Virus record (IMG/VR): IMGVR_UViG_3300037225_000230
Span: 1-23,397 of that record
Length of the DNA: 23,397 bases
Source: a virus
Direction: 5' to 3' (one strand)
In this document: positions 7,869 through 20,871 of the stretch, one piece after another
How the letters are laid out: every line of letters starts with the position of its first letter
How positions within the stretch are numbered: the first letter of the stretch is position 1
Program-made: the position numbers and the translations under genes
The notes under the pieces: generated by a model
What the model was told of the DNA's origin: nothing
The model's input: the letters and a program-made list of their open reading frames with translations, nothing else
Database searches by the model: none

Positions 7869-8365
7869 TCACCTGGGAAGATGCCGGACATTCTGAGAAT
7901 GTAATAGAAAATTTCCGAGACTCTCCCATCCGTGACAAGCCTGAAAATCTCCCTGTCGCAACCGCCCTGCGGATCGGCTTTGTATGCAACGAAATCCTTT
8001 TTCGCCGGGTCGTAAAAGTCTCGCCAGTCCGTCGTGGCGGCCCTGGCAAGTTCACGTATCTTTGGGTTGAGGTCATAGGTCCGGCTCTTTGAGCCCTCCG
8101 CTCGAAGTTCGCATATAAGGCGCTCGGCCTTGTCGTTTTCGGCTTTTGTGAAGCTCCTCAAAACAAACGTCGGGAAGTACCCATGCAAGTCCTCGGCTAT
8201 TTCAAACTCCGGTAAGTCCTCGAATTCTCCCGTCGCCTCATTGAGTTTCTGCTTGTGCTTGAGATATGCGGAGGGCGGGAATTCAACAGTAGCCTCACTC
8301 GAAAAAGACATGTGTCCCGCAAGTTCTCGCCTCAATTCCTCGGTCATTTCTCTGCGCTCTGCCAT
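7850..8365 (-). CDS. Tail assembly chaperone, G-like (pre-frameshift product)
   Basis: 171 residues, an acidic and helical protein located directly before the tape measure gene, where siphoviruses encode the tail assembly chaperones. AAAGGGGG stands 5 nt upstream of the ATG at 8365. Residues 20-50 contain FPPSAYLKHKQKLNEATGEF, and the rest is of mixed alpha/beta character. The frame ends at 7850, but the -1 frame is open from about 7868 to 7533 and ends in TAATG against the tape measure gene, the arrangement expected of a G/GT programmed frameshift. Function is assigned from position and this architecture rather than from a motif. Confidence 0.7.
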   Translation of the reverse strand: MAERREMTEELRRELAGHMSFSSEATVEFPPSAYLKHKQKLNEATGEFEDLPEFEIAEDLHGYFPTFVLRSFTKAENDKAERLICELRAEGSKSRTYDLNPKIRELARAATTDWRDFYDPAKKDFVAYKADPQGGCDREIFRLVTDGRVSEIFYYILRMSGIFPGEKLSLR

Positions 8366-8523
8366 GTGGTCCCCCTTTTGATTTTGTGTAATAGCTTTCG
8401 ATATGTCCGGTCAAATTCTTTGGAGTGCTTGTTTACCACTATACCCACGGCCTTCATTCTCACGCAAGCCATTAGGTTGATTTCTGCCTCTGTCAACACT
8501 TTACACTTGCGCTTCCGGTTCAC
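8344..8523 (-). CDS. Small basic protein between Psd-like and tail chaperone genes
   Basis: An open frame that fills the 135-nt spacer after the Psd-like gene and ends 22 nt inside the next gene. Possible starts are GTG at 8523 (59 residues, AAAGG about 8 nt upstream, overlapping the Psd-like gene) or GTG at 8499 (51 residues, one nucleotide after the Psd-like stop). The protein is Lys/Arg-rich with a helical stretch TEAEINLMACVRMKAVGIVV and a basic end KHSKEFDRTYRKLLHKIKRG. It is not recognised; a nucleic-acid-binding role would fit the charge only. Confidence 0.5.
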   Translation of the reverse strand: MNRKRKCKVLTEAEINLMACVRMKAVGIVVNKHSKEFDRTYRKLLHKIKRGTTWQSAEK

Positions 8524-9289
8524 CTTCCGCGCCTTTCTTGTCCGGCAATGATTCGTCTTGCTTTTTGTGCTTTTGCCCCTCGCTCTTACCACGAACATAA
8601 ATAAGCCTATCCAGCCCTGCCCGAACATGGCGCTCTTTTGTTTCCATCAGGTCGAATTCAAAGCAGTCGGTCAACGGAAGAATAATCGACACCTGTGAAC
8701 CATACCGCACCACAGAAAACCTTTCGTTCTGCCCGTAGTGCTTGCCCTGCCGCGTTGTAAACGGCGCGACTACATTCACGTCGGAATCACAAATCTGCAC
8801 AAGATAGTACACGTACCGCCCGTTGTAAATTGTATTCACCGTTCGGCCGTTTTTTGTTGGGTATCCCATGTGCTTATAGTTGATATGCCCGGCCAACAAG
8901 TCGCGCTCTTCAAAAATCATTGGAATATTCTTGGTTTGCAATGGTGCAACCTGTTTGAAAAACACGTTACCATTTGTCGGCATCCTGTTGATGTGTACGT
9001 CGTATTGCGACATAAAAATACTTATCACAAGTGACGTTTTGTCAAAAGACGCGTCCTCAATGAGCTTTTGGGGCGTGTATGTAATGCCTTTCACTTCCGC
9101 GATTTCCTCATCGGCTTTCTTGAACCCTTGATCTATGATAGTCCCGTCAGCCGGGGAAAAAACATAATCAGAATCCTTGTAAACGGGACGCGAAGGATCA
9201 CGGAAAAAGAAAACGGACGCAAGGAAATCGGGGTCCATTTTCTTGAACGGTTTTATTTCGTCAAGCCACTCGTTGAGAGAGGAAGACAT
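8501..9289 (-). CDS. psd-like: Phosphatidylserine decarboxylase-family proenzyme
   Basis: A 262-residue protein with the Psd signature: FFRDPSRP (28-35), SPADG (45-49, Asp48), IFMSQYDVHINRMPTNG (91-107, His99), GKHYGQNERFSVVRYGS (182-198) and the self-cleavage Gly197-Ser198 before SIILP. In the family Asp, His and Ser form the charge relay for autocleavage, and the new N-terminal Ser becomes the pyruvoyl cofactor; all three are present. Cleavage would give chains of 197 and 65 residues. The usual Asn-Glu-rich and ArgArg-Ile segments in the middle are altered, and the last 30 residues are charged and low-complexity. No membrane segment. Psd makes phosphatidylethanolamine, but family relatives also decarboxylate amino acids such as tryptophan, so the substrate is open. 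Confidence 0.9.
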   Translation of the reverse strand: MSSSLNEWLDEIKPFKKMDPDFLASVFFFRDPSRPVYKDSDYVFSPADGTIIDQGFKKADEEIAEVKGITYTPQKLIEDASFDKTSLVISIFMSQYDVHINRMPTNGNVFFKQVAPLQTKNIPMIFEERDLLAGHINYKHMGYPTKNGRTVNTIYNGRYVYYLVQICDSDVNVVAPFTTRQGKHYGQNERFSVVRYGSQVSIILPLTDCFEFDLMETKERHVRAGLDRLIYVRGKSEGQKHKKQDESLPDKKGAEGEPEAQV

Positions 9290-10263
9290 TAAAACACGTC
9301 CCCTTGATCGGACTGGTAGTCAACATAATTAAGGTGCATGACCAAGCACGACAAAGCTGCCCCCGATTTGTTAAATTCTCCCAAATTGAATGGAACCAAC
9401 CCTAATCCGTTTTGGCTGCAAATATGATTCAATCTCTCTATCTTTGTCACCTCGGTCATATAGTTTTTGTCGCTTGCGCGTAGAGATGTAAGATCGGATG
9501 CAACTATTATATTAGCCCCCACTCTTACGCAATTACACGCCATCGCATAGGCTTCCGGTTTTGGTATGTCAATAACCTCAACCACCTTTTCCACCTCTTT
9601 CAGGTCAGCAGGTTGAAGTAGCTCCGTTGCAACCAAAGCCTTTTCCATGGTCAAAGGGAAAAAATTACAATCCCAATGATATTGTCTTTCGTCACTTATC
9701 AGGCACTTGACAATCTTGATGCCGAATTGCTTTTCCATCCACTCGTATGCCTCAATATCGCTCCGCATCCCATACCCGCCGACAAAAATATTGTCTCGCA
9801 CAAATTTCAAATCGGCTTCACCTTCAAAATGACAATCTGGTGGAGGAGCGATAACCGTGTACCCATCGCTCTCGAAGTACGCCTTGCCTACTTTCTCCTC
9901 TCCGCGTCGTGGCTCAGACGTGAAATTTGAAATGACAATAACATCGGCGGGCTCAATGTATAGCCCCATGTTCGCCACATAAATGAGGTCTTGTAGTTTT
10001 CCCGTGTGCGGGATTAGGTCAACACTGCCGGAGTTTGCGGCGATCCATTGGTAGAGTTCATTCCACTGCGCCCACGCCTTATCGTAGTCAACTTCGCGGT
10101 CTTCCGGGGCAATCTCCTGCATCCACACATTATTTGGATCATCCACGTTGAAGTTTTTCTTGTGTGGCTTAACCATGCAGAACGTAGGCCACCGGAGATC
10201 GGAAGGGGTCTCCGCCTCTCCGGTGGGAATTATCTTGTCAAAGCTATTTTTTACTCTTGCCAC
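9289..10263 (-). CDS. DDAH / arginine deiminase-like amidinohydrolase
   Basis: A 324-residue member of the guanidino-group-modifying superfamily (amidinotransferase/DDAH branch). Motifs in order: YVANMGLYI (95-103), NFTSEPRRGEE (113-123), FEGEADLKF (146-154, catalytic acid Glu147), GYGMRSDIEA (163-172), QYHWDCNFFPL (194-204, catalytic His196) and SGAALSCLVMHL (300-311, nucleophile Cys306). All three catalytic residues are present, so the enzyme should be active. Relatives hydrolyse methylarginine or arginine to citrulline, or transfer amidino groups; the substrate is unknown. No signal peptide. Start is a GTG with an AGGTG Shine-Dalgarno inside a hairpin. The stop and the next start overlap as TAATG, coupling it to the decarboxylase-like gene. 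Confidence 0.87.
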   Translation of the reverse strand: MARVKNSFDKIIPTGEAETPSDLRWPTFCMVKPHKKNFNVDDPNNVWMQEIAPEDREVDYDKAWAQWNELYQWIAANSGSVDLIPHTGKLQDLIYVANMGLYIEPADVIVISNFTSEPRRGEEKVGKAYFESDGYTVIAPPPDCHFEGEADLKFVRDNIFVGGYGMRSDIEAYEWMEKQFGIKIVKCLISDERQYHWDCNFFPLTMEKALVATELLQPADLKEVEKVVEVIDIPKPEAYAMACNCVRVGANIIVASDLTSLRASDKNYMTEVTKIERLNHICSQNGLGLVPFNLGEFNKSGAALSCLVMHLNYVDYQSDQGDVF

Positions 10264-10298: not shown

Positions 10299-12125
10299 TT
10301 ACGACCTCGACCCGATAAGGATTTCAAATGCGCACTCATCCGGCAACGCGCTTTGTACAGGCCCGGCGCCGAGATTGTTCCCGTGTAGCCCCAGCACCTT
10401 CCCCAACTCGATGAACCCATTTGCATCAACGGGAGACGGGGAAGCTACTTGCCCGCGCGGGCATTCGATTGACAGGTTTGGGCTAAATAGCGCGCTCTGA
10501 ATCAGCACGTCGACTTCTTGCTGTGCAAGCACGTTCGCAATCACGTCTTCCTCTGTTTTTGTTTTCATCAACGGGTTAATCGTGAGCTTGGGCGCAGCTT
10601 CGGTGCGGCAATAATAGTCGTGGCCCGTGGAGTCTTTCTGGTTGGGCAGCGCCGCAATCTTGTTGCCAAAGGCCAGCGAGAACTTGCTGATATTCTCCTG
10701 AAGAACCGTTCCTGTCGTGGTAGTTCCGGCCGACGCGATTGTCGGGCACCCGCCGGCAATGACCTCGCAAACGTTGGCAATCATTTTCTCTGGGGTCGTG
10801 ATGTCTGGGCCAGTCAGCACGGGCCAAATTGAATCCGAGGAAAGAATCTCCGCGGTCCCGGTGAACTTTCCCTGATATTTTCCCTTAAACTTATACGCCT
10901 GTGTGGATTCTCCGTCCAGTGACCCATCGCCGAAGCATCCTGCGTACATCCACGCCATCGCCTTCGGTGATGCGCCAGTCTGTATGTCGACCTTCCACAG
11001 AGTCAAGGTAACATCGTCGCAAGCGGCCAGGGATTGGAAACCCACGCCGGTTGTGCCGTAGAAACGCACCGCATGACCCATGCCACGCATGAATTTATAC
11101 CACTGCGGCAGCAGCACAGCCGCCGTTGTGTCGGCACTCGTGGTAGAATAGGCCACGCCAGGGGCGACAACAAAGAGTGACGCGACGGCGCCGCCTGTTG
11201 TGATTGACGTCACCAACAGGTCGCCCCCCTGCGCCGGGGCAGCATCGTTGACCGTTACCAGGTCCCCAACCTTGTACCCGGTTCCGGCTTCCGCCGTGTG
11301 GGGAACGGCGGACAAAATCGAGCCGTTGCCGTCAATGGTAATATCCACACACAGGCCCGAGCCTTTGCAAATACTCACCGCGACCTTCTCGTCAAACCCG
11401 ACCTCGCCTTCTTGCGTGGTCATGATGGACTGGTCCTTGCGGTGGTCGCCGGTGGCGAACTGTGCAGACTCCTCGTCCGGGGTAATTTTAGGAGCGTTGG
11501 TAAGTGCCCGCATCCTGGTGTTGAAATGAAATGGCTGGAGTGACACAGGACAACCCGGCGTCAAGATTGACGCATACGGCATTACGTAGGAGTTGGCAAG
11601 CTGAGCAGCGAGCAAAACAGAATATCCGTACCCGGCAATGGCGGCCGTCTTGTAGCTTATTCCGGTGATGCTGATGCGCTCCGTTTTTGGCATATTGGAA
11701 ACTGTGGACAGGTCTTGTATCACAAACGTGTGCGGAAGTTCCCATGCGAATTGAGGCAGAAAAACTGTATATGCCGTACCTGCGGCATATCCGGTTCCAG
11801 CGTTTACAACAAGAAGAGATGCCACAACCCCGCCGGTTGTAATTGTTGACACCTGAAGTATTCCATTCCACGACAAGTGCAAAGTCCCGCACGAAACGAG
11901 AACGAGCTGGCCAGGGGCATATCCGGTCCCGCCGGAAACTATCGACACACCAGTTATCACCCCGCCCGTTTCCGACACCGTAAGGGTTAATCCGCTCGCG
12001 TGAGTAGAGGGGGGATAAATCCCCGACAAGTCAACGTACTGCGGGCTCGCTGGCACAACGCCTTTGGGAATAAGAACCTCTTCCACCGCCCCGACGAGAA
12101 CCGATTTGTTGGTCATGAACGACAT
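10299..12125 (-). CDS. Probable major tail (tube) protein with duplicated GxGY modules
   Basis: 608 residues from the ATG at 12125, chosen for the GGAGG site 7 nt upstream; the frame opens further upstream without one. Its place before tail assembly genes and after the terminator candidate suggests the tail-tube protein. It is much longer than usual (150-350 residues) because of inserted Gly/Thr/Val-rich beta modules: VSIVSGGTGYAPGQLVLVS, STITTGGVVASLLVVNAGTG, then a second set EAGTGYKVGDLVTV and TSITTGGAVASLFVVAPG. Thus one module pair is repeated about 215 residues later. The C-terminal third (TTPEKMIANVCEVIAG...) may hold the tube fold. A tail spike/fibre-like role cannot be excluded. Confidence 0.62.
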   Translation of the reverse strand: MSFMTNKSVLVGAVEEVLIPKGVVPASPQYVDLSGIYPPSTHASGLTLTVSETGGVITGVSIVSGGTGYAPGQLVLVSCGTLHLSWNGILQVSTITTGGVVASLLVVNAGTGYAAGTAYTVFLPQFAWELPHTFVIQDLSTVSNMPKTERISITGISYKTAAIAGYGYSVLLAAQLANSYVMPYASILTPGCPVSLQPFHFNTRMRALTNAPKITPDEESAQFATGDHRKDQSIMTTQEGEVGFDEKVAVSICKGSGLCVDITIDGNGSILSAVPHTAEAGTGYKVGDLVTVNDAAPAQGGDLLVTSITTGGAVASLFVVAPGVAYSTTSADTTAAVLLPQWYKFMRGMGHAVRFYGTTGVGFQSLAACDDVTLTLWKVDIQTGASPKAMAWMYAGCFGDGSLDGESTQAYKFKGKYQGKFTGTAEILSSDSIWPVLTGPDITTPEKMIANVCEVIAGGCPTIASAGTTTTGTVLQENISKFSLAFGNKIAALPNQKDSTGHDYYCRTEAAPKLTINPLMKTKTEEDVIANVLAQQEVDVLIQSALFSPNLSIECPRGQVASPSPVDANGFIELGKVLGLHGNNLGAGPVQSALPDECAFEILIGSRS

Positions 12126-12156
12126 TGGAACCCTCCGTTGAAAAAAGTATACATTG

Positions 12157-12942
12157 TTATGCTGATGCTCTTTGTAAAGGCTCTGCCCTGTCCTGGCAAT
12201 ACTTGACAATCCATTGTATTTTTATTTTTGACGGGCGTTGAATATCGTTTTGGTCTTGATTGAGAATCTGATGGCTCCGGTACAGAATCATGTCGCAAGA
12301 GTCGTTCACTGAGTCGCCCATGACTATTCCGCGCGCGTCGGGCTTTGGCCCGAAACACCGCTTAAGGTCGTCCATTATCATCCGCAGCAGACTACGGATT
12401 GTGAAGTTTGAACAGTTTGACCACGCCTGATCACCCTTCGCATACATGGTAAACAAAACGTCATTGGTGTACGCTTGGCAGTTGGGCGTGTTCGGAGAGT
12501 CAGTATTTGTCTCTGCCGGTGACTCGATGACTACGCGGGGATATCCCGGCACCGCCGCTTCGTCCGGTTCGTTTACAACCTTCCAGTCAAAATTGTATCC
12601 GGTCGCTTTGGTGATTCCCAGAATGCGGATTTTCATATTCAATTCAACATTGTCAAGTATTGAACAGGCCAGCGCAACCCAATTTGTAACAAGAACCGTA
12701 TCGTCGATGCTGTTTCTTATCGTGCAATTGTAAATGTCGCAATCGTTTCCCGTGGGGTCGCACGTCACCGCAGGGAACGACAAGGACGCAGAAACCGATC
12801 CCTGGATAGGGGTCAGGTACTTATTCCACTGATAATAAATTACCGCTGTCGGGTCCGTGTGTGTAGCAACAACAGAGAATGACGTCGCGGACCCAAGGGC
12901 GACCAACTGCGAAACCGGCTGCGATGTAATTGAAAGGCTCAT
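12157..12942 (-). CDS. Ig-like domain fused to a probable tail terminator
   Basis: 261 residues. Residues 5-90 look like an immunoglobulin-like domain: SITSQPVSQLVALGSATSFS, a core Trp39 in YYQWNK, and D69-x-Y71-x-C73 in the F-strand position with Cys61/68 nearby. Such domains are common on phage surfaces and bind sugars weakly. Residues 100-261 resemble tail-terminator (gpU-like) proteins in style: MKIRILGITKATGYNFDWKVVNEPDEAAVPGYPRV, then FTIRSLLRMIMDDLKRCFG, with a beta-alpha arrangement and position just before the tail-tube gene. An AAGGA Shine-Dalgarno stands 4 nt before the ATG. The terminator role is inferred; the Ig-like call is the better supported part. Confidence 0.65.
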   Translation of the reverse strand: MSLSITSQPVSQLVALGSATSFSVVATHTDPTAVIYYQWNKYLTPIQGSVSASLSFPAVTCDPTGNDCDIYNCTIRNSIDDTVLVTNWVALACSILDNVELNMKIRILGITKATGYNFDWKVVNEPDEAAVPGYPRVVIESPAETNTDSPNTPNCQAYTNDVLFTMYAKGDQAWSNCSNFTIRSLLRMIMDDLKRCFGPKPDARGIVMGDSVNDSCDMILYRSHQILNQDQNDIQRPSKIKIQWIVKYCQDRAEPLQRASA

Positions 12943-19942: not shown

Positions 19943-19970
19943 AAGAGGCCCGGATTGCTCCGAGCCTCTT
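19943..19970 (-). terminator. Intrinsic terminator after the deiminase gene
   Basis: On the minus strand a 12-bp stem (AAGAGGCTCGGA paired with TCCGGGCCTCTT, one G-T wobble) closes on a GCAA tetraloop of the stable GNRA class and is followed by the T-rich run TATTATTTATTT. The first arm overlaps the stop codon of the deiminase gene. It separates the terminase transcription unit from the head genes. Confidence 0.88.
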
Positions 19971-20871
19971 ACTCCACCACGTTCCACGAAGTACATGACA
20001 TTAATCCGCCCTCCATCGACAGCTCTTTGCAATCAATGGCAATCACAGCATGCTTCGGATACCATTTCCGCAGCGTCGCAATCGCGGCCTCGTCCTTGTC
20101 GATACCGAACGCCGGCGCAAGGACAACGCTCTTTGTCAACAGAAAGTTAATGCAGTATCCCACTGCCGGATTGTTGTCGTCCGCGAGAGGGTACTGCGCG
20201 TGGAAATCCGCGTCGGTAAGCTGCGGGCAAAGCCCATACGCATACGGCATGAGTTCCACGGTTATTCCGGCCTTACCAAGCCGCGTCATAAGCTCGTTGT
20301 GGAATTTCAAGTAAGGCGGGAACATGCTTGAATAGTCGTTGACAAGAAGGTGTTTGTCGCCGTCAATGAACTTGCATATCCCATCTGAATGCCCAAGGGT
20401 ATCTCCGGGCTCTATCGGAATAATCACTACATCAAGGTTGAAAATCTTTTGCAGCTTTGCGATCAAGTCGGGCCGCTTCACGCTGGGATTGTCGAGGAAA
20501 ACTTTCTCGGTGATGATCGCCGTGGTCTTGCTGCGGATCACGCCGCCGCCGTCGAGAACTATTTCCGACTTCACAAGGGGCTTACACACGTCAAAACATT
20601 TCTCTGGAACAATCAGCCATGGATAATCTTCGTACCCGGACGCGAGCCCGTCGGAGCTGTACCCCTTGTATCCAAATTGCACGAAGTGGTCGCCAACCTG
20701 TAGGGGCATGTAGTCTCGGCACCAGATATTGAAGTTGCCAGGGATGAGGCGCACCTGAATACCGTTTGCTTTGAGATTAGTTTTGGATGGCCCAAACACG
20801 CCGGGAAATCGGTGCGCGAAAAATTGCGAGAAGTAAACCACATTAGTGTCGAGGTCACTAAACTGCTTCAT
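19969..20871 (-). CDS. Agmatine deiminase / peptidylarginine deiminase-like enzyme (PAD_porph family)
   Basis: A 300-residue member of the guanidino-group-modifying superfamily. Family signatures in order: WCRDYMP (50-56, the WxRDxxP substrate-binding motif), VLDGGGV (105-111), GDTLGHSDGICKF (156-168, with catalytic His161 and Asp163) and EGGLMSCTSWN at the C-terminus with nucleophile Cys293. Many agmatine deiminases have His-Cys at this last site; here it is Ser-Cys, followed by TSWN as in peptidylarginine-deiminase-like relatives. Agmatine deiminase converts agmatine to N-carbamoylputrescine and ammonia; the PAD-type relative converts arginine to citrulline. The substrate cannot be fixed from sequence. 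There is no signal peptide, so it is cytosolic. A GAGG Shine-Dalgarno and an ATGA overlap place it at the end of the terminase transcription unit, immediately before a terminator. Confidence 0.9.
   Translation of the reverse strand: MKQFSDLDTNVVYFSQFFAHRFPGVFGPSKTNLKANGIQVRLIPGNFNIWCRDYMPLQVGDHFVQFGYKGYSSDGLASGYEDYPWLIVPEKCFDVCKPLVKSEIVLDGGGVIRSKTTAIITEKVFLDNPSVKRPDLIAKLQKIFNLDVVIIPIEPGDTLGHSDGICKFIDGDKHLLVNDYSSMFPPYLKFHNELMTRLGKAGITVELMPYAYGLCPQLTDADFHAQYPLADDNNPAVGYCINFLLTKSVVLAPAFGIDKDEAAIATLRKWYPKHAVIAIDCKELSMEGGLMSCTSWNVVE

Follow-up and report, generated by a model that had tools for sequence, protein, structure and literature searches.

Why a phage should carry a protein of the phosphatidylserine decarboxylase (PSD) family among its tail genes, and on what substrate such a protein would act, are the questions raised by the locus shown above. 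The window, by which we mean the whole stretch of 23,397 bases analysed here, is an IMG/VR virus fragment in which every large gene lies on the minus strand, including those for a terminase, an agmatine-deiminase-like enzyme, a portal protein, a head morphogenesis protein, a scaffold-like protein, the major head protein, tail proteins, a tape measure protein and a long tail-end protein. A sequence-only reading had described the decarboxylase as a solitary enzyme between tail genes. Its neighbourhood is indeed a structural operon, with the tape measure gene downstream and a tail-like gene (10299-12209) upstream, but the enzyme is not alone, since a second enzyme gene overlaps it on the upstream side and a related third lies about 9.7 kb upstream of the pair, near the portal gene:

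8501-9289, minus strand: decarboxylase proenzyme with the PSD fold, putatively a pyruvoyl ornithine/arginine decarboxylase (262 aa, ATG start; Pfam, phrog_12670, AlphaFold/Foldseek, 50 relatives)
9289-10263, minus strand: arginine-dihydrolase-like enzyme with the ArgZ/AgrE fold (PDB profile, model, conserved residues)
19969-20871, minus strand: PAD_porph / agmatine-deiminase-like enzyme, third member of the cassette (Pfam, PDB profile, linkage, catalytic residues)

The start codon of the decarboxylase ORF and the stop codon of its upstream partner overlap by one nucleotide (TAATG), from which the two ORFs are predicted to be translationally coupled, and a Shine-Dalgarno stretch (AAGGGGA) lies just 5' of the decarboxylase ATG.

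The decarboxylase belongs to PS_Dcarbxylase (PF02666; 80.1 bits against a cut-off of 22, E 2e-22) and matches phrog_12670. Its AlphaFold model (pLDDT 80) found E. coli PSD (7cnw) as the top Foldseek match with a probability of 1.00 and an E value of 6.5e-7 (VIA Z 10.8). The structural matches also included enzymes acting on amino acids, namely the tryptophan decarboxylase PsiD (8zia, Z 9.7) and an Aspergillus oryzae arginine decarboxylase (Z 9.1), with scores slightly below that of the ordinary PSD, although this common superfamily fold does not indicate the substrate. IIA-glucose proteins and M23 peptidases also scored against the model through a hybrid beta fold held in common, which is functionally uninformative. 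The residues and motif on which the argument below depends are the following:

8696-8701, minus strand: Gly197-Ser198 codons (GGT TCA), where self-cleavage is predicted to generate the pyruvoyl group
8768-8797, minus strand: residues 165-174 (QICDSDVNVV), with acidic residues in the place of the QIAGxxARRI motif that ordinary short PSDs have
8993-8995, minus strand: His99 codon, equivalent to His144 of E. coli PSD by profile alignment (PMC7952604)
9146-9148, minus strand: Asp48 codon, equivalent to Asp90 of E. coli PSD by profile alignment (PMC7952604)

Mutagenesis of E. coli PSD has given D90/D142-H144-S254 as the best-supported cleavage residues (PMC7952604), and these align with D48/D97-H99-S198 of the window protein, the first three mapped by profile alignment and S198 by the Gly-Ser site. 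Among 50 non-identical relatives, Asp48 was found in 49/49, His99 in 50/50 and Ser198 in 48/48 wherever the position was aligned, and Gly197 in 48, with Ala in one more. Conservation without exception at three positions and with a single exception at the fourth shows that selection maintains a self-cleaving enzyme here; the triad is intact on careful alignment, and the earlier claims of an intact proenzyme, of Asp48, His99 and Gly197-Ser198 at those places and of the absence of a transmembrane segment all stand. The E. coli residue His147 was considered as the catalytic histidine and set aside, its equivalent here being Arg102, whereas the main role in E. coli falls to His144 (PMC7952604), which is conserved. 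A lone AMG or a host relic is ruled out by the conservation together with the linkage described below, and a role in defence or anti-defence was rejected, as none of the three enzymes had a match in PADLOC.

For the upstream partner, a family profile searched against the PDB retrieved AgrE (6lrf, E 7e-37) and ArgZ (5e-34) far ahead of the next match, a DDAH (1e-6). The partner model (pLDDT 90.7) agreed, with ArgZ (6jv0) at Z 34.5 and an rmsd of 1.8 over 266 residues. DDAH and N-succinylarginine dihydrolase (Z 27), arginine deiminase (26) and amidinotransferases (24) followed, so that DDAH, arginine deiminase and amidinotransferase were rejected as the nearest fold. Residues N98, R119, E147, H196, D198 and C306 are conserved among the relatives, with Cys306, His196, Glu147 and Asn98 as the catalytic equivalents; Asn98 aligns with Asn71 of AgrE. 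R119 (48/48) and R167 (47/48) align with Arg90 and Arg139 of AgrE, which we take to hold the substrate carboxylate, a group that agmatine lacks. On the basis of ArgZ and AgrE as closest solved relatives, the partner is predicted to be arginine-dihydrolase-like, converting arginine to ornithine, CO2 and two NH3. A role of the asparagine in the second hydrolysis would fit the PDB entry 6juz, in which ArgZ N71S holds a trapped intermediate, though Asn98 by itself does not prove dihydrolysis, because it is also kept in a DDAH-like relative (L047). That relative, at 198-1097 of its contig, is diverged and scores best with a model of DDAH, and no decarboxylase lies on its visible side, the contig ending on the other. 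The partner of one bacterial locus, L057, likewise scored slightly higher with DDAH than with the arginine dihydrolase model. The window partner itself reached 119 bits against NCBIfam NF052232, below the cut-off of 450, and a BLAST search of plasmids gave only distant relatives of it.

The third enzyme meets the Pfam cut-off for PF04371 (PAD_porph) with 90.3 bits, and its profile retrieved the agmatine deiminases 2jer, 2ewo and 1vkp from the PDB. It resembles AguA in family and in its His/Asp/Cys residues (His161, Asp163 and Cys293, in 16/16), and differs from it in scoring below the equivalog level (45.2 bits against the TIGR03380 cut-off of 381.8). A separate IMG/VR search with this family found 14 contigs, in 13 of which the gene is contiguous with genes of the pair: 11 have all three genes contiguous, and in two the decarboxylase and the deiminase-like gene stand together where the contig ends. 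The remaining one is the window's nearest relative (L001), whose decarboxylase is 74% identical to that of the window and whose genes have the same separated arrangement. The deiminase-like gene was found in no bacterial locus of the pair. A distant relative (26%) of this enzyme is encoded at 8189-9049 of an unannotated phage record from human faeces (MT836602.1).

The two genes of the pair travel together well beyond the window. With tblastn against isolate phages, both proteins were found in the same two groups, the Campylobacter phages and the Bacteroides phages DAC16-DAC23 and SJC03; the genes are adjacent in DAC19, and the Campylobacter phages keep both at a distance (33.7-34.6 kb and 76.6-77.4 kb in NCTC12673, about 40 kb apart). 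Separate IMG/VR searches with either family led to the same contigs. Besides the window, 32 distinct non-Campylobacter viral contigs have both genes, and each non-Campylobacter viral locus that is complete enough and has one gene of the pair also has the other, the exceptions being three in which the decarboxylase is cut at a contig edge (L010, L094 and L097) and L047, also at an edge, with only its DDAH-like relative of the partner. The partner comes first in most contigs and the decarboxylase in four (L033, L036, L040 and L046); L018 has the two on opposite strands, with 1.6 kb between them, and L019 has them separated by another ORF. This intervening ORF (9466-9993, 176 aa) is possibly homing-endonuclease-like. 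In bacteria the pair was adjacent in 13/13 loci, from Actinomycetota, Verrucomicrobiota and one Methylococcaceae. Across 39 loci, the distance matrix of one family correlated with that of the other at r = 0.94, a value reached in 0/2000 permutations. Taken together, the shared contigs, the adjacency and the matrix correlation are not a product of chance.

In a tree, the decarboxylase family was separated with full support from ordinary short PSDs, of which three were included. The question of a phage-only clade, raised by the sequence-only reading, was answered in the negative, as the phage sequences need three label changes on the tree. This pattern would accord with transfer between bacteria and phages on several occasions, and the phage sequences may also have had a single origin.

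From three enzyme families with intact catalytic residues, linked genes and joint inheritance, we infer the likely substrates, products, timing and purpose of the cassette. In our preferred reading, to which we give a probability of about 0.6, it would be a phage pathway that is expressed late and leads from arginine to a putrescine-type amine, the PSD-fold protein serving as a pyruvoyl decarboxylase of ornithine (or arginine). The ArgZ-like enzyme would hydrolyse L-arginine to L-ornithine, CO2 and ammonia. The PSD-fold protein would cleave itself between Gly197 and Ser198, turning Ser198 into a pyruvoyl group, and would then act on ornithine to give putrescine or, with lower probability, on arginine to give agmatine. 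In the subset of phages that have it, the agmatine-deiminase-like enzyme would convert agmatine, whether of host origin or made by the cassette itself, to N-carbamoylputrescine. The amine might help to offset the charge of the DNA during packaging, or assist translation late in infection.

The choice of substrate is the point at which the competing explanations part. The sequence-only reading had put forward a change of the host membrane lipid as a possibility, and a decarboxylase acting on phosphatidylserine or a related phospholipid late in infection would accord with PF02666 membership, with E. coli PSD as the best Foldseek match and with the annotation of the Campylobacter phage copies as PSD. 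The window protein shares with E. coli PSD (6l06, 7cnw) the fold, the D-H-S triad for self-cleavage at a Gly-Ser bond and the KG-Y lid segment, but only 17% identity, and it differs in its cleavage site (GSQ against LGST), in the surroundings of the pocket and in having an arginine-enzyme partner. Against the NCBIfam PSD equivalogs its best score was 74.7 bits, far below the cut-off of 183. The family motif is QIADxDVDxI where ordinary short PSDs have QIAGxxARRI, placing acids at the arginine and glycine positions (Asp168 in 48/49 relatives, an acid at position 170 in 45/49), and this change from basic to acidic would fit a cationic amino acid substrate. The hydrophobic helix found at the N-terminus of the ordinary short PSDs compared is missing from this family, yet short helices are predicted in the N-terminal part of the model, and E. 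coli PSD binds the membrane by amphipathic helices (PMC7952604). The PSD-like protein was also rejected as the main PSD of its bacterial hosts, where this could be tested, with a separate and far better scoring ordinary PSD in 10/12 carriers. The second PSD, the acidic motif without a hydrophobic helix, and the chemistry of the co-inherited partner all argue against a phospholipid, and we consider a change of membrane lipid unlikely and the phospholipid decarboxylase itself highly improbable. The gene stands almost always beside an arginine-breaking enzyme, in phages and in bacteria, so the likely substrate of the decarboxylase is an amino acid derived from arginine, and of the options that the sequence-only reading had entertained, the amine pool is one option that gained support.

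Whether this amino acid would be ornithine or arginine is a finer distinction, on which the surroundings of Ser198 cannot tell. Two points favour ornithine: it is what the partner would produce, and the bacterial pairs come without an agmatine enzyme. Alternatively, the PSD-fold protein would be an arginine decarboxylase and its agmatine would pass to the ArgZ-like protein, acting as an agmatine dihydrolase, and/or to the deiminase-like enzyme to give N-carbamoylputrescine. This version is kept in play by the solved PSD-fold precedent from A. oryzae (9jf5, 9jer) and by the third gene, which agrees with an agmatine intermediate; we nevertheless regard it as unlikely, given the conservation of R119 and R167, presumed binders of a carboxylate, and the bacterial pairs without a deiminase-like gene. 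The A. oryzae enzyme and PsiD resemble the window protein as PSD folds turned to free amino acids, and differ from it in being fungal, larger and without a sequence match detectable by profile. A profile search of solved structures gave no match to the fungal arginine decarboxylase. We know of no arginine dihydrolase partner for the fungal amino-acid decarboxylases with this fold. The partner is closest to the cyanobacterial ArgZ and AgrE (30% identity, catalytic residues kept) and differs from them in being free-standing, without the ornithine cyclodeaminase domain, and in being coupled to a decarboxylase gene. Since in AgrE a single polypeptide unites a dihydrolase with an ornithine-using enzyme (PMC8262935), the gene coupling here may by analogy join a dihydrolase to an ornithine decarboxylase.

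The bacterial loci bear on what the amine might be used for, and their neighbouring genes are these:

L049 7743-9125, L051 2956-4173 and L061 7869-9086, and also in L052, L054 and L057-L060: MATE efflux gene beside the pair
L056 (Streptosporangium) 10453-12777: NRPS condensation/AMP-binding gene near the pair
L053 (Saccharothrix) 101-2638: AMP-binding gene near the pair

The MATE exporter gene (PF01554, 130 bits) lies beside the pair in nine loci from two phyla, co-directional in three, and suggests that these bacteria export the product. A PotD-like polyamine-binding protein (175 bits) is encoded after the pair in L054, weak evidence confined to one lineage. The actinomycete neighbours make a use of the amine in natural products possible, and the bacterial neighbours as a whole fit a small cation that is exported or incorporated. 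Some phages modify their DNA with groups derived from amino acids, and the cassette might likewise supply an amine or guanidine side chain for hypermodification of DNA or protein, or for a small bioactive molecule, in place of a free polyamine. The NRPS domains, the AMP-binding gene and the MATE exporter would all suit such a role, but no nucleotide-modification gene was found beside the pair in the loci read, the window itself being a fragment, and we think this explanation improbable.

If the preferred pathway from arginine to a putrescine-type amine holds in bacteria as well, the module might stand in for a classical one. It was present in 5/113 Verrucomicrobiales genomes. Nearly all the others have LysA and a SpeA-sized PF02784 protein, whereas four of the five carriers have LysA only; a SpeA-type match was missing from 4/5 carriers against 6/108 others (Fisher p 1.6e-4), in genomes that are related, non-independent and in some cases incomplete. 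AguA was absent from 7/9 Verrucomicrobial carriers and present in 12/12 SpeA-bearing relatives checked. This looks like a replacement of SpeA by the module, to which we give moderate weight only because of that relatedness and incompleteness. Against the preferred pathway stands the Methylococcaceae carrier, which also has SpeA, SpeE and AguA. The Verrucomicrobiales carriers are also without Sacchrp_dh_C (homospermidine/carboxyspermidine enzymes), SpeY and SpeD and so may have dropped classical polyamine synthesis altogether; carriers such as L052, L054 and L057 would have either a new polyamine route or none. Searches for SpeE, SpeD, SpeY and Sacchrp_dh_C in the bacterial carriers indicated no downstream use of putrescine. 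With somewhat less than even odds, we tentatively propose that bacteria of several phyla have an undescribed two-enzyme route to putrescine, composed of an arginine dihydrolase and a PSD-derived pyruvoyl ornithine decarboxylase, which diverse phages would have taken up, some adding the agmatine-deiminase-like enzyme, and placed in a late structural operon.

Polyamine enzymes are already known from viruses, among them the pyruvoyl ornithine/arginine decarboxylases that phages have derived from SpeD (AdoMetDC) (PMC9992855, PMC10407285). Those enzymes and the chlorovirus PBCV-1 route (ADC, agmatine deiminase, NCPAH, HSS) are alike in being proposed for viral polyamine making, and the SpeD-derived enzymes are, as here, pyruvoyl decarboxylases recruited from another substrate; their decarboxylases differ in having the AdoMetDC or PLP fold and not that of PSD. 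The same two papers make no mention of PSD, arginine dihydrolase or Campylobacter, and the portion of the open-access literature available to us contained no description of the module and nowhere linked a phage PSD with an amidinotransferase. The study of polyamine synthesis in phages is young and expanding, and its surveys have sought the known polyamine enzymes. If our reading is right, a new biosynthetic route lies behind the labels 'phosphatidylserine decarboxylase' and 'amidinotransferase', even in the well-studied Campylobacter phages, the annotation of dozens of phage genomes would be corrected, and whether phages make amines for DNA packaging could be tested directly.

At its 3' end, the decarboxylase gene of the window is overlapped by a 94-aa ORF on the same strand (8344-8628, minus), which is without a Pfam match and for which a shorter start 3' of the decarboxylase stop codon is possible. 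The decarboxylase itself ends in a charged C-terminal tail (SEGQKHKKQDESLPDKKGAEGEPEAQV; 8501-8580, minus) that is absent from the copy in L001.
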